Part shown: in pieces, positions 9,020 to 63,660 of the stretch | Layout: every line of letters begins with the position of its first letter | How positions within the stretch are numbered: the first letter of the stretch is position 1 | Source of the DNA: Chrysoperla carnea | Lineage: Eukaryota > Arthropoda > Insecta > Neuroptera > Chrysopidae | NCBI RefSeq assembly: GCF_905475395.1 | Contig: NC_058342.1 | Span: forward strand, 19,316,640-19,380,639 | Reading direction: 5' to 3' | DNA length: 64,000 bases | The notes under the pieces: model-generated | Databases searched by the model: none | Told to the model about the DNA's origin: nothing | Seen by the model: only the letters and a program-made list of their open reading frames with translations | Program-made: the position numbers and the translations under genes

Positions 9020-10380
9020 AATATTTAAAATTTGTTACAGAAAAATTAGGTAAGGTGATAGAATTCTCACAAGTGACATGTTCTACAAAACTAGCATAAA
9101 TAATCTATAAATTTGTTCTTATGTTTGTCTTTTTTTCACTTTTTTAATGGAAGAGTATTTTACATGGCATGGAACTATAAAATTTTTTTTGTTCCACTGT
9201 ACCTGGGTGGGAAAATTAACATGATTTTCGAAAAATAAATGTATTCATGGCAGATAGAATATGAATATCTATAACATATCCAAATCGATAGAGTTAAGGG
9301 TATAATCGTAGTGCTAGAAATTCAATTGTAACTTTAACTATTCTTATCTGGAACTGCTTTTATTTCTAAATTTTTTTTCTACCAATGAATATTCCAGAGG
9401 ATTCTTAAAAAAATTATAAAGTTTCACGCCAATCAAAAATTTGTACATAACTGCCTAAAACCATAAGTTATATATTGACTTGAGAAAATAATCCACTTGA
9501 AATAAGGAAACTATATAATTTAAGTTAGTATTTTTGGACATCAGTATCAAAAAAAAAAGATATAAGATACGAAAAAAATGATACAGCCACAAACTTAATA
9601 AACTTTTGAAACTGATTTCGGTAAACAAGTACTTTAAATACTTAATATCATATAAAGAGTATATTTTCTTAAACCAACATATTCCTTGCAAATCGTACAT
9701 TTTTAATAGTAGATTATAAAAGTGATATTTTCATGTTAATAAATTATGGTAAATATTATTTCCTACAAAATTTATTATTATAAAAAGTGGTTCATTTTCT
9801 GAGTTCAATTTATAACTTCCATTATGGTTTAAGGCAGTTATGTTCAAATTTTTGATTGGCATGAAACATTCTCTAATTGGAGTGAAACTTTTTAATGTTT
9901 TAGGAATCCACTTAAATAGTCATTGGTGGAAAAAAACATTTATAGAGAAAAGCGGTTTTCCATCTAAGAGTGGTTAAAGTTACAACTGAATTTCCAGCAC
10001 TGTGGCAACATCCTTTACTCTATCGCTTTGAAATTCGGATATGTTACAGACATTCATATTCTACCTGCCATTAGTACCTGCCATTTATTTTTCGAAAATT
10101 CTGTTATTTTTCCCAATTTACGTTTTTCACACCCAAGTACAGTGGAATAAAAAATTTCTGTTGTCCTAGAGCAGGTAAAATATCCTCCCATTAAAATAGT
10201 CAAAAATAAAATGACAAAATTTTGGTTCTTTAGAGCGTAGTCATACGAAATTTTGCAATTTTTCTTGTCTACCAGTAATTTGTAGAAGTATTTTTACTAG
10301 TCTTACAGAACATGTCACTTGTAAGATTCTGTAACTTTAATTAATTTTTCTGTAACAAATTTTAAATGTATCTTAAAAAT
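9020..10380. mobile_element. Large foldback repeat R6 with ~450-540-bp arms
   Basis: The left arm (about 9020-9465) and right arm (about 9830-10380) are inverted copies. Paired blocks include ACAAGTGACATGTTCT with its complement near 10310, a CCACTGTACCTGGGTG block with the CACCCAAGTACAGTGG block near 10135, and CCAATCAAAAATTTG with CAAATTTTTGATTGG at the inner ends. The roughly 365-bp centre is A+T-rich, and the open frame in it (9455-9700) has no recognisable domain. Related arms sit in the opposite arrangement at 25000-25575. Family unknown. Confidence 0.75.
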
Positions 10381-20343: not shown

Positions 20344-20670
20344 TACTGAATATAAATATACTTAATTGTATTACTGATGACAACACCTGTAAACTAGAAG
20401 TTATGAAACTATTAAGATTATTAAAATAAACTACAAATGAAATGAATATTTTAATGGATGATGGACTGTGGCGAAAAGTTTTAAACAGACAATAAAACAA
20501 TTGTTTTGAATGAAATATATCATTTTATTAAAACTTTGTTGATATATGATATTATTAAAGGTTTTCCATTATGAGCGATAGAGCTTCAAACTTAAATTAA
20601 ACAAGTATTTTGATTGCGCGCTTGAATTTGAATACGGATGCAGAAATTTTGCAAAATCCCCTTCTAAAAA

Positions 20671-22105: not shown

Positions 22106-22592
22106 CACAAATAACATTGATTCCATATTTTGTGTTGGTGCCTCTGGACACCAACACAAAAATAGTTTACCTACATATTTAATACCTAACTTTTCTATCG
22201 AATTTCAATATATTTAGGGATAATAATCTCTATCTCTTTTAATGGTGATTATTTCCAGGTATTCAATAAGGCCGGTGTAGTTTTAGTATTCGTAATTTAA
22301 TTTTGCTTGACTATTTTTTGTCCATTGGCCGGTTTTTTTTTTTTGTATTATTTTAACAATTCACAATTTTTATGGTTTTATTTTTCGTTACGATATATTC
22401 GAATAAAAATTGAGTATTATTTGTTAGGTATGGAAATTTTATAGGTGGGGGATTTATCAATATAATAGTGGTAGGAGTATTAACTGAATTGGGTGAAATG
22501 CAAAGGTATAATATGTATACAATTACAATATTAAAAATACCAGATGTTTTAAAACTTCTGTGAGCAACTATTGCAATAATCTTGTTCAGTTG

Positions 22593-23745
22593 ACGAGATA
22601 CACAAGGATTGAATAATAATAAGGATTTCAATAAAACTTTACAAATACATTTTTTGATTAACAGAGTTTCCAAAAATTACAAAAAATTTGTAGGTCATTG
22701 AGCTTTTTATACCATATATATATATGAAATATACATAGTATATTAAGTTTAGTCCAAAGTTTGTAACGCCTAAAAATATTCATGGTACGAAAAAAATTTT
22801 GGTATAGGTGTTCATAGAATCACCTAATTAGTCCATTTCCGGTTGTCCGTCCGTCCGTACGACCGACCGTCCGTCCGTCCGTCTGTCCGTAGGACCGTCC
22901 GCCCGTCCGTCCGTAAGTCTGTGAACACGATAACTCAAAAACGAAAAGAGATATCAAGATGAAATTTTTATAGCGTACTCAGGACCTAAAAACTGAGGTC
23001 AAGTTCGTAAATGAGCAATATGGGTCAATTGGGTCTTGGGTCCGTAGGACCCATCTTGTAAACCGTTAGAGATAGAACAAAAGTTTAAATGTAAAAAATG
23101 TTTTTTATAAAAAAATAAACAACTTTTGTTTGAAAATTTTTTTTGTAAACTTCACTGTTTACCCACGAGGGCGCTTATTAGGTGCAAATTTTATAGTATG
23201 CATTCATATGGGAATGTCAGTGTGTGTGTAGCTATTTAAAAGTGGATATCTTTTTTTATTAACATGCCGTCAAAAAACAAACGATTGCCTCATCAACACT
23301 GTCTATACATGGTATTTCAACAATTAACTCAGTCAATTGTTTGTTTTCACTTGTTATTATTATTTTATCGTTCAAAGTTGGCTGAAAAAATGATGAATCT
23401 TACAGGTTATTCTTGTCATATATCTTATCCTATCTATTTCAAAAAATCGAGTGTGCCAATCTTGTAGTTTATAATAATATACCATAAAAATATAAGGTTG
23501 CCGATGATATAAAAACAAAATTTTAATTTAATTATGAATTCATCGAAAATCCATCATTTGATGAACAGAGACGACAATAGTTAAAGTATCACTTGCACAC
23601 AATATATTATATATTTTTGTAGTTGCGTGGTAATGTAAAGCTAAAAATAAAACATTATTTGGCTACAAATCATGTATTTGGTTTATATGTATGTACTGTG
23701 CCACAAAAAAAATTCTTTTACAATACTGTATGAAAACAAACATCT
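22593..23745 (+). repeat. Dispersed repeat R2, interrupted copy
   Basis: Left part 22593-22705 and right part 23356-23745 together match 62905-63510 in order. Shared text includes TTCAATAAAACT, CAAAGTTGGCTGAAAAAATG, CATTTGATGAACAGAGACGA and TTGTAGTTGCGTGGTAATG. The 650 bp between them is the Helentron-like copy D, absent at 63 kb. A third, partial R2 copy is at 38866-39000. No ORF of note; family unknown. Confidence 0.75.
22706..23355 (+). mobile_element. DINE-1/Helentron-like element, copy D (complete reference copy)
   Basis: Boundaries are set by comparison with the empty R2 site at about 63014-63026. The element starts TTTATACCATATATATATATG in a T run and ends CACTTGTT before ATTATT. In order it has: a start inverted repeat; TTTAGTCCAAAGTTTG; a long CCGT/CCGTCTGTCC tract (22846-22918); the core ACTCAAAAACGAAAAGAG; CCGTTAGAGATAGAACAAAA; TATACATGGTAT (complement of the start repeat); the hairpin AACAATT/AATTGTT; and the end. 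It creates no obvious target-site duplication. It encodes nothing, so mobilisation would need a trans-acting Rep/helicase (inference). Confidence 0.85.
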
Positions 23746-23905
23746 TAAGCGGGATTTTTTCAAACAGTTCATCAGTACTTTTTTGGCACTATAAGGTATA
23801 CGGCGGGAAAATAGTCAGACTGCACTTTAACATATCGTTAAAAATGATGGAACATAAAAAATTGCAAAAGTTATGAACAATTAAAAATGAAAAAAAGGTA
23901 AATGA

Positions 23906-24037
23906 AACCGGAAATGGACTAATTAGGTGATTTTATGGTTACCTATACCAAACTTTTCTCAATCAATGTTCTTAAGCGTTACAAACTTGGGACTAAACTT
24001 AAAATACTATGCTATATCTCACATATACATGATATAA
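23906..24037 (-). mobile_element. DINE-1/Helentron-like 5' fragment, copy E
   Basis: AACCGGAAATGGACTAATTA through GCGTTACAAACTTGGGAC to ACATATACATGATATAATAA is the reverse complement of the first 130 bp of the family. The rest is missing. Confidence 0.75.
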
Positions 24038-34719: not shown

Positions 34720-34852
34720 ATCATTGGCGCAACTAGATAAGGCATGGTACTATATGACAGAATTTATTTTATGATTATTATTTATTTTACCTGGTACTAT
34801 AGGACAGTATTTGGGCAATGCCGGTACTTTAAATTCAAGTCTCACCAAGACC
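34720..34852 (+). pseudogene. Decayed tRNA-Ile(UAU) copy with duplicated middle
   Basis: CATTGGCGCAACTAGATAAG and GGTACTATATGACAG (34720-34765) resemble the 5' half plus intron start of the intact genes. After about 25 bp, GGTACTATAGGACAGTATTT, GGGCAATGCCGG and a weak TTCAAGTCTCACC (34789-34852) resemble the middle and 3' half. The anticodon region thus occurs twice, and neither part can fold a full acceptor stem. Confidence 0.7.
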
Positions 34853-34920
34853 ATCATATTTTAATAGATTAAAAATTCTATAACTAAATTTGTTTTTAAA
34901 ATTTGCTACGGTTATCAGAA

Positions 34921-35010
34921 GCTCTAGTGGCGCAATTGGTTAGCGCACGGTACTTATAGGACAGTATTTGAGCAATGCCGGGGTTGTGAGTTCGAGCCTC
35001 ACCTAGAGCA
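34921..35010 (+). tRNA. tRNA-Ile(UAU), intron-containing, copy 1
   Basis: Acceptor GCTCTAG pairs exactly with CTAGAGC, discriminator A. D arm GCGC-AATTGGTTA-GCGC. Anticodon stem CGGTA/TGCCG with loop CTTATAA after removal of a 16-base intron (GGACAGTATTTGAGCA) placed 3' of position 37. T arm GTGAG-TTCGAGC-CTCAC. The sequence closely follows the eukaryotic tRNA-Ile(UAU) that reads AUA codons and usually carries an intron. A run of T from 35011 is a good Pol III terminator. Confidence 0.95.
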
Positions 35011-35076
35011 TTTTTTTTAAATAGATCAAAAATTGCCAAAACTACAAATTTTTAATATTAAAATCAGTTATTACAA

Positions 35077-35166
35077 GCTCTAGTGGCGCAATTGGTTAGC
35101 GCACGGTACTTGTATGACAGTATTTGAGCAATGCCGGGGTTGTGAGTTCGAGCCTCATCTAGAACC
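35077..35166 (+). pseudogene. tRNA-Ile-like copy 2 with UGU anticodon
   Basis: The body is identical to copies 1 and 3 through the D arm, anticodon stem and nearly all of the intron. The loop, however, reads CTTGTA, giving anticodon UGU (Thr). The 3' end is CTAGAAC followed by C, which breaks the second acceptor pair (C-A) and changes the discriminator from A to C. The T stem has a G-U at its base. Decay is the simplest reading; a mis-decoding tRNA is possible but unlikely. Confidence 0.85.
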
Positions 35167-35231
35167 TATTTTTTAATAGATAAAAAATTGCCAAAACTAC
35201 AAACTTTTAAAAGTTGTATCGGCTTTAACAA

Positions 35232-35321
35232 GCTCTAGTGGCGCAATTGGTTAGCGCACGGTACTTATATGACAGTATTTGAGCAATGCCGGGGTTGTGA
35301 GTTCGAGCCTCACCTAGAGCA
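35232..35321 (+). tRNA. tRNA-Ile(UAU), intron-containing, copy 3
   Basis: Same perfect acceptor, D and T arms as copy 1, anticodon loop CTTATAA, discriminator A, 16-base intron TGACAGTATTTGAGCA, and a T-run just downstream. It starts 311 bp after copy 1, and spacers between copies are also alike (AATTGCCAAAACTACAAA), so the unit duplicated in tandem at about 155 bp. The 105-codon minus-strand frame across it is an antisense shadow. Confidence 0.95.
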
Positions 35322-35773
35322 CTTTTTTTAAATAAATAAAAATGAATATTTAATTCCATATTTATTTTATATGAATTTCCTGAGGCAAAATTAAAAAGGA
35401 ATGGGAAATTTATAAACCAAAGAGAAATTTTAGTGGCTAAACTGGGAATTTTGGCAACAATGCCCACATCAAGCATAACCATCCTTTTAAAATAACGAAA
35501 GAAAACAGCTGTCAATAGTACGATGAAAACACATTGACACAAAATTAATATTCTCTAATTGATCTATAATCTTTTTATTCAATGAAAATAATCAGCTGGA
35601 TGACCTGATGAAAGGTTCATTTTGTTACTTCCGCGGTGTTGAGATCTTCATAATGTTCGCGGATAGGTTGTGGAATTAAGTTGGATTTGGCTTTGCTAAC
35701 CCTGATTAATTCTAATTTTATTGTAATTTTTAGAATATACTGCCATTAAGTGAGAAAAAACATACTTTAAAAG
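35322..35773. other. No supported feature
   Basis: Spacer between the tRNA array and the MITE. Slightly less A+T-rich near 35620-35700, but no ORF or motif recognised. Confidence 0.45.
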
Positions 35774-43888: not shown

Positions 43889-44496
43889 CTTTTTATACCA
43901 TGTATATATGAAATATACATAGTATATTAAGTTTTTATGCTATGTATATATGAAATATACATAGTACATATATTAAGTTTAGTCCCAAGTTTGTAACGCT
44001 TAAAAATAATGATGCTAGGAAAAAAATTTTGTCATAGGTGTTCATAAAATCACCTAATTAGTCCATTTCCGGTTGTCCGTCCGTCCGTCTGTGGACACGA
44101 TAACTCAAAAACGATAAAAGATATCGAACTGAAATTTTTACAGCGTACTCAGGACGTAAAAAGTGAGGTCAAGTTCGTAAATGAGCATCATAGGTCAATT
44201 GGGTCTTGGGTCCGTAGGACCCATCTTGTAAACCGTTAGAGATAGAACAAAAGTTTAAGTGTAAAAAATGTTCCTTATCAAAAATTAAACAACTTTTGTT
44301 TGAAACATTTTTTCGTAAACATCACTGTTTACCCGCGAGGGCGCCAATTAGGCGGAAATTTTATAAAATGTACTATACTTGGTTATCAGTTACGTATGTG
44401 TCACATGTTTGTATGTGTAATGTAATAAAGAAATCAATACTGACTATGCATGGTATGTCAACAATTAACTCAGTCAATTGTTTGTTTTCAGTTGTT
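43889..44496 (+). mobile_element. DINE-1/Helentron-like element, copy I (near complete)
   Basis: The 5' end is partly duplicated: TATATATGAAATATACATAG occurs twice (about 43904 and 43943). It then carries TTTAGTCCCAAGTTTG, the CCGTCCGTCCGTCTGT tract, the full core and GCATGGTATGTCAACAATTA, ending CAGTTGTT. The next base already belongs to an inverted partial copy. Confidence 0.85.
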
Positions 44497-44811
44497 ACAT
44501 TTAAACTTTTGTTCTATCTCGGTTTACAAGATGGATCCTACGGAGCCAAGACCCAGGTGACCCATGTTGCTCAGTTACAAACTCGACCTCACTTTTTATG
44601 TCCTTAGCACGCTATAAAAATTTCAGTTTGATATCTCTTTTCTTTTTTGACTTATCGTTTTGTCAGAAAGACTGATAGACAATCGAAAATTGACTGACTA
44701 ATTTGGTAACTTCATGAATATCTCCTATACCAAAATTTGTTCGTATAATCAATATTTTTTAAAGCGTTACAAACTTGGACTAAACTTAGTATACCTTGAT
44801 ATATTTCATAT
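44497..44811 (-). mobile_element. DINE-1/Helentron-like element, copy I' (inverted partial)
   Basis: Directly abuts copy I. It runs from core text (AAACTTTTGTTCTATCTC) through GATATCTCTTTTC and CGTTACAAACTTGGACTAAA to TTTCATA, where the (ATT)n end of a SINE begins. Either a SINE landed in it or the element inserted beside the SINE tail. Confidence 0.8.
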
Positions 44812-62904: not shown

Positions 62905-63510
62905 TTAAGGAGATTTGCAAGGGTTGAATAATACTAGTGTTCAATAAAACTATATAAAATATATTTTTTTATTAACAAAGTTTCCAAAAATTTCAAAAAA
63001 ACCCTAGGTCACCCGGCTTTCTGTTATTATTTTATCGTTCAAAGTTGGCTGAAAAAATGATGGATCATATAGGTTATCCTTTTCAATTGGATTTTTCTAT
63101 ATCAAAAAATCTAGAGAGTGTGATAAAAACCTATCTAAAATATTAAGACAATTTTGTAAATTATAATAATACCATAAAAATATAAGGTTGTCGATGAAAT
63201 AAAAACAAAACTTTAATTTAATTATGAGTTCATCGAAGATCCATCATTTGATGAACAGAGACGACCTTTGTTAGAGTATTGATGATTGAAGAGCGATATC
63301 TATATTATCAAATTTATAAGCATCACTTGCACACAATATATTATATAGTTTTGTAGTTGCGTGGTAATGTAAAGCCAAAAATAACTCATTACTTGACTAG
63401 AAAGCATGTATTTGGTTTATATGTATAACCATATAACGGTATCGTGTAGATGTATCGTTTTTTAGTATGTACCGTGCAATAAACCAAAACTTTTTTAAAA
63501 TACTGTGGGT
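62905..63510 (+). repeat. Dispersed repeat R2, uninterrupted copy
   Basis: Carries in one piece the two halves that flank Helentron-like copy D at 22.6-23.7 kb. The empty site is CGGCTTTCTGTTATTATTTT at about 63014-63033. It has extra sequence relative to the 23-kb copy, for example about 63282-63320 and about 63425-63460. Confidence 0.75.
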
Positions 63511-63660
63511 TTAAAATCACTTTAAGCAAGTGGGTGAATCTGTGGATAGTGTTGGCGCGTACACTATTTCTGCAAATTTTCCAAGCAAGCATATTTTGAT
63601 GTTTTTTGACAACAAATGTAATTTTTTTCCCTTCACAGTTAAAAAAAGTTGTATAGTTAA

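Follow-up and report, generated by a model that had tools for sequence, protein, structure and literature searches.

The genome of Chrysoperla carnea raises, at one locus, the question of how a copy of a repeat comes to lie in two halves. The locus was analysed within a stretch of 64,000 nucleotides (C6:19316640-19380639 of the 559-Mb genome; hereafter the window), in which one copy of the repeat, termed R2, occupies 22593-23745 and is split by some 650 bp, and a further copy is located about 40 kb away at 62905-63510. A sequence-only reading of the window had proposed that the latter is continuous across the split and that the intervening DNA, placed at 22706-23355, is a Helentron-like insertion whose ends are fixed to within a few bases and which lacks a target-site duplication. 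We asked what the insert is, whether it was gained or lost, and by which protein it may have been moved.

Results

An R2 copy split by 647 bp

When 22300-24000 was compared with the window by BLAST, two matches at 63 kb were obtained (Table 1), and therefore the R2 halves are contiguous there, as had been proposed. R2 is a high-copy repeat with 3146 first-look candidates in a genome search. The insertion point, at about position 116 of the query, fell within a single match in all 40 of the places scored, which were the best 40 of the 3146, so that this count is a lower bound. Thirty R2 loci, among them the window's own 63-kb copy, were fetched, and every one was empty and unbroken at the insertion point. 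The six bases at the junction were TTTTTA in 22 of these loci, TTTCTA and ATTTTA in two each, and TTTCTG, TTTTTG, CTTTTA and CGTTTA in one each, i.e., eight loci departed from TTTTTA by one or two bases. Across this point the R2 consensus reads GGGC-TTTTT-ATTATTATTTTATCG, and the filled copy reads GAGC-TTTTT-ATACC...CACTTG-TT-ATTATTATTTTATCG.

With respect to its own boundaries, R2 has TTAA at its start in 24 of 30 loci and at its end in 11 of the 18 for which the right end was read; it is perhaps a TTAA-targeting MITE, judged by these termini. The filled copy begins with TTGA where the consensus has TTAA, and the empty copy at 63 kb carries an extra ~38 bp near 63427-63464 which is absent from most other copies.

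The net insertion amounts to 647 bp (652 bases in the place of 5), and deletion of 22707-23353 restores the R2 consensus. Because the left-hand match extends across TTTTTAT and the right-hand one begins with TTAT, the ends of the insert can be slid within the T-rich site, from 22707-23353 to about 22709-23355. Both ends are accordingly placed to a few bases, as the sequence-only reading had stated, while its limits of 22706-23355 overshoot the slidable range by one or two bases.

Table 1. Positions in the window of the split R2 copy, the inserted element with its parts, and the uninterrupted R2 copy
Feature	Position	Strand	Basis
R2 left part, filled copy	22590..22706	+	BLAST, 22595-22697 to 62910-63011, 81%; R2 consensus and boundaries
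Probable HINE insertion (non-autonomous Helentron, DINE-1-like), 647 bp	22707..23353	+	Net gain against R2 consensus; same ends in 37 family copies
5' subterminal inverted repeat, ATACCATATATA (family ATACCATGTATA)	22709..22720	+	12-bp match to reverse complement of 3' arm
5' palindrome overlapping the 5' subterminal inverted repeat, family ATGTATAT...ATATACAT	22714..22736	+	Fold of consensus 5' end
(GTCC)n microsatellite block	22845..22915	+	Tandem Repeats Finder
3' subterminal inverted repeat, TATACATGGTAT	23304..23315	+	38 bp from 3' end
3' hairpin, AACAATT-loop-AATTGTT	23319..23341	+	12 bp from 3' end; no mismatch in 31 of 37 copies
R2 right part, filled copy, ends CTTAA	23354..23748	+	BLAST, 23357-23692 to 63024-63426, 73%
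Empty R2 copy, TTAA-bounded	62905..63525	+	BLAST, genome search, boundaries
Empty target TTTCT (R2 consensus TTTTT)	63018..63022	+	Comparison with R2 consensus

The insert has the anatomy described for HINEs

The insert recurs elsewhere in the genome with identical ends (40 left and 39 right ends were viewed), and 38 of the 40 family places scored reach both ends. The counts given below for 37 copies leave out one copy with tandem 5' ends (L040) and two incomplete ones (L046 and L047).

HINEs, or DINE-1-like elements, have been defined by subterminal inverted repeats (subTIRs) of 12-15 bp, with the 5' arm set in from its terminus by 2-4 nt and the 3' arm by about 38-60 bp, by a palindrome lying 8-35 bp short of the 3' end, and by a T-rich target with at least two Ts on each side, according to the definition in PMC4067079; a GTCY-rich microsatellite is among the features described for DINE-1 in PMC2374699. 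In the insert, the subTIRs are 12 bp long with the 5' arm 2 nt and the 3' arm 38 bp from the termini, a spacing within the defined range. A 12-bp subTIR was reached by one in 1000 mononucleotide shuffles of the family consensus, and 30 of the 37 copies carry the two arms without mismatch. The hairpin near the 3' end has a stem of 7 bp and lies within the distance given for the HINE palindrome, and the palindrome at the 5' end folds in the consensus at -10 kcal/mol, a value taken without shuffle control. The (GTCC)n block corresponds to the GTCY-rich microsatellite, and no frame of at least 110 codons is present within the element, in keeping with a non-coding HINE. A canonical Helitron, with 5' TC and 3' CTRR ends and insertion between A and T, is ruled out by the TTATACC...CACTTG ends and the TTDTT target.

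The copy number of the family in the genome is high. In the window alone, 35 matches in 19 clusters cover 9.5% of the sequence at E<=1e-5, and the reversed window gave none at the same threshold; the matches are therefore not due to chance. A search with 64 bases of the 5' end had 581 first-look candidates, and the 40 that were scored, all on C1, each matched identically over the full length. The median divergence from the consensus was 1.2% among the 37 best copies, which is not a family average as the search retains the best matches, and that of the copy under study was 2.8%.

Two other features of the window were recorded. A 155-bp tandem repeat at 34793-35343 contains three predicted tRNA genes of ~90 bases, Ile(TAT), Thr(TGT) and Ile(TAT). 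In addition, the window contains a putative jockey-like open frame.

Target site and further empty sites

The element interrupts the pentamer TTTTT in 25, TTATT in six and TTGTT in three of the 37 copies, and CTATT, ATATT and ATTTT in one each. The motif TTDTT thereby describes 34 copies, the other three deviating at the first base only, and insertion occurs at a T-rich site with at least two Ts on each side, as in the HINE definition. The base which follows CTTGTT is free (T in 22, A in eight, C in four and G in three copies), and therefore a duplication of more than 2 bp is excluded. If the element is taken as ATACC...CACTTG, the empty sites are equally compatible with a 2-bp duplication of TT or with T microhomology. 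Insertion without target-site duplication is the likeliest reading, short of proof from the R2 site; the earlier claim that there is none holds only for anything longer than 2 bp and was slightly overstated for a TT duplication, which fits equally.

For further empty sites, the joined flanks of the 37 copies were used as queries against the window and 88 fetched loci. Five of them matched across the junction, namely those of the element in the window, L027, L029, L031 and L043, and for the remaining 32 no across-junction match was present in the window and the fetched loci. L027 and L029 have exact empty sites in L064 and L065, at 89-93% identity over 363-394 columns, in which CACAATTT is followed directly by TTAATGC at the junction. 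The two insertions have flanks in common and may represent one event. In the cases of L031 and L043, one or two unmatched bases remained at the empty-site junction; the comparison of L043 with L003 and L064 was set aside on account of large alignment gaps.

Tandem 5' ends in several copies

A copy at 43890-44497 of the window carries tandem 5' ends, which start at 43890 and 43932 and represent a unit of 42 bp. Tandem 5' units of 42 bp were also observed in L082, L083, L084 and L085, numbering two, four, two and two, respectively, and units of ~54 bp in L086, L009 and L040; in L030 the unit is 30 bp. Among the 40 scored 5'-end loci, five (L082-L086) had an extra 5' end just upstream. The flanks of the copies with tandem 5' ends looked unrelated by eye. 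The junctions of the 42- and 54-bp units are located at TTT tracts inside the element, and that of the 30-bp unit in L030 is not.

Tentatively, the two to four 5' ends with units of 42 or ~54 bp could be the remains of elements that inserted into themselves and were then copied by the rolling-circle route, with the outer 5' end as start and the first 3' end as stop, a scenario to which we give rather less than even chances. Slippage at T runs would also explain the tandem ends of 42 and 54 bp. If self-insertion is true, such copies would be evidence, at the level of sequence, that transfer is initiated at the outermost 5' end and terminated at the first 3' hairpin, and self-insertion would be a route by which HINEs gain 5' repeats. 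A limited literature search returned no obvious published precedent for tandem HINE 5' ends, which does not imply that none exists.

A Helentron with matching ends

A search for PF14214 gave 64 matches in the genome. An element of 11.4 kb on the minus strand of C192 contains an open frame of 2158 codons (17855-11382), the predicted product of which has DUF6570, Helitron_like_N and PIF1 domains in a whole-protein scan. An endonuclease domain, PF14529, was matched with E 4.5e-5 when the C-terminus was scanned alone, at 23.7 bits and hence below the curated cut-off of 27.4, and it stayed above E 0.001 when the whole protein was scanned; a GDFN motif is present. The frame accordingly combines Rep, PIF1 and a C-terminal AP endonuclease, the latter below the curated cut-off, which is the combination that marks Helentrons. 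Among solved structures, the protein matches PIF1 helicases and Helraiser. Helentrons are further marked by (F/Y)xR near motif 2 and by S after RG, according to the description in PMC4067079, and the Rep motif of the C192 protein, YYRIEFQQRGSAHVHG, has the Helentron-diagnostic YYR as well as RGS. Near its N-terminus, the protein (L079) has a run of 21-residue repeats, RREDEIYKRAEQAENSLAHKL.

Both ends of this element resemble those of the insert. Near 20460, its 5' end aligns with positions 2-475 of the HINE at 86% identity over 474 columns, and near 9035, its 3' end matches the last 64 bp at 95%. A published rule assigns elements with at least 80% identity over the last 60 bp to one subfamily (as given in PMC4067079), and judged by their 3' ends the two elements are one subfamily under this rule. 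The corresponding rule for a family demands at least 11 bp of identical subTIR (also as given in PMC4067079); the subTIRs agree at 11 of 12 positions with the mismatch in mid-repeat, which is borderline under that rule. The arms of the C192 element, ATACCCTGTATA and TATACAGGGTAT, are exactly complementary, and the same base differs from the HINE in both of them. By this matched change, the 5' and 3' ends of the C192 element are linked to one another. For HINE segment 476-586, the C192 element offers no match beyond a 16-bp word, and therefore the HINE did not arise from that copy by simple deletion; the partner's 5' part also diverges from the HINE by 14%. A second, partial HINE-like stretch lies within the element upstream of the frame.

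HINE fragments, which make up ~10% of the window, might by chance flank a Helentron frame, and we consider this unlikely, as the frame is flanked by two lone ends with mutually matched subTIRs. On these sequence comparisons, the C192 Helentron is the likely autonomous partner of the HINE.

In a genome search with the C192 protein, the best 22 of 452 first-look candidates were scored, and these included one intact frame of the C192 type, a close copy on C4 that is interrupted by stops, and a fragment located at C1:8743133. The stop-interrupted pieces of the C4 relative are 74-97% identical. Its match on the 3' side ends after 253 bp, and ~4.8 kb of other DNA lies within its N-terminal repeat region; neither a HINE 3' end nor a partner-like 5' end was present in the stretches fetched beside it. 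The C4 relative speaks neither for nor against the proposed partnership.

A frame on C7 (2462 codons, of which 1908 lie in L078) was also considered as a partner. It is of the Helitron type and was ruled out, given that it has no endonuclease match, that its Rep has RGL, the Helitron state, and that the fetched stretch contains no HINE end. Frames of the Helitron type with 2462 codons occur twice, at C7:377020 and C7:190501. Repeats spaced at ~756 bp follow the C7 frame in L078, visible only as recurring BLAST matches at chance level. At C3:3767553-3809834, seven Helitron-helicase matches, mostly ~5.8 kb apart, form a tandem array of a Helitron-bearing unit (one unit: L080).

Discussion

The insertion with its ends, target motif and terminal structures, its family of copies and a Helentron with matching ends in the same genome together point to one explanation. 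The 647-bp insert is very probably a HINE, i.e., a non-coding, DINE-1-like Helentron derivative moved in trans by a protein with Rep, PIF1 and endonuclease domains. The earlier assignment as Helentron-like is upheld by the DINE-1/HINE anatomy, by the further empty sites and by the long element that has both ends and a Rep-helicase-endonuclease frame, and it can be refined in that the insert would be of the non-autonomous kind. By analogy with the published family, the rolling-circle steps and the mobilisation of the HINE by a protein of the C192 type can be outlined. The Helentron protein, comprising Rep (HUH), PIF1 helicase and AP-type endonuclease, would act on the HINE in trans and nick at its T-rich border; a single strand would be copied, starting at the 5' end and stopping at the 3' hairpin, and the copied strand would then be joined into a TTDTT target, so that the host would gain the element with no duplication of more than 2 bp.

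As a pair of aligned sequences gives no direction, the 22-kb R2 copy could in principle be ancestral and the 647 bp have been lost from the others. The insert is a repeat itself, present with identical termini at many further sites, which indicates gain and not deletion from R2, and in view of its absence from all 30 fetched R2 copies a loss is extremely improbable. With the ends set at ATACC...CACTTG, the empty sites in R2 and in L064/L065 are also compatible with a 2-bp duplication of TT, as would be left by a cut-and-paste MITE whose first base is that of its inverted repeat (ATACC...) and whose insertion duplicates TT. The same ambiguity about the target-site duplication has been raised for DINE-1 in the discussion by Yang and Barbash (PMC2374699). 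However, the 3' inverted repeat of the insert sits 38 bp internal to its 3' end, and the C192 partner, whose ends match, codes for Rep, PIF1 and endonuclease, so that we regard movement by cut-and-paste as very unlikely.

A larger, still minor, share of doubt falls on the source of the protein, as the HINE may have been moved by a Helentron family other than the C192 type. Such a source would accommodate the one differing position per subTIR arm, the segment that the C192 element lacks, and the finding of a single intact C192-type frame among the 22 scored candidates. Against it stand the agreement with C192 over the last 64 bp (95%) and over the first 474 aligned columns (86%), and the fact that, among the best 22 of 452 candidates, only C192 combines high identity with a full-length unbroken frame. 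We therefore favour a HINE served by the C192 type of Helentron.

Comparison with known systems

A filled and an empty R2 copy 40 kb apart thus place the ends of a DINE-1-like family to a few bases, and one genome provides a matched pair of a non-autonomous HINE and a probable autonomous Helentron. Like DINE-1/INE-1 of Drosophila as described by Yang and Barbash (2008, PMC2374699), the element in the window has a (GTCC)n block. In contrast, the subTIRs in the compared rows of Table 1 of that paper do not include ATACCATGTATA, and the central tandem-repeat block of 50-500 bp described for DINE-1/INE-1 has no counterpart found by Tandem Repeats Finder in the HINE studied here. By its description, Helitron2_Cv of Calliphora vicina is similar, being DINE-1-like, ~750 bp long and GTCY-rich with 11-bp subTIRs, and it is called very common in Muscomorpha in the same account (PMC3630058). 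Close parallels are also offered by the HINEs and Helentrons of Metaseiulus, Culex and Drosophila (Thomas, Vadnagara and Pritham 2014, PMC4067079). For these elements, paralogous empty sites, a T-rich target with at least two Ts per side and a Rep/helicase/endonuclease partner with common ends have likewise been described; no target modification was found in them, which for the HINE studied here holds as regards duplications longer than 2 bp. What sets the C192 element apart from the Helentrons described there is its 2158-codon frame, in which DUF6570 and a repeat region at the N-terminus are present. The HINE of C. carnea confirms the published picture of HINEs and Helentrons and leaves it unchanged.
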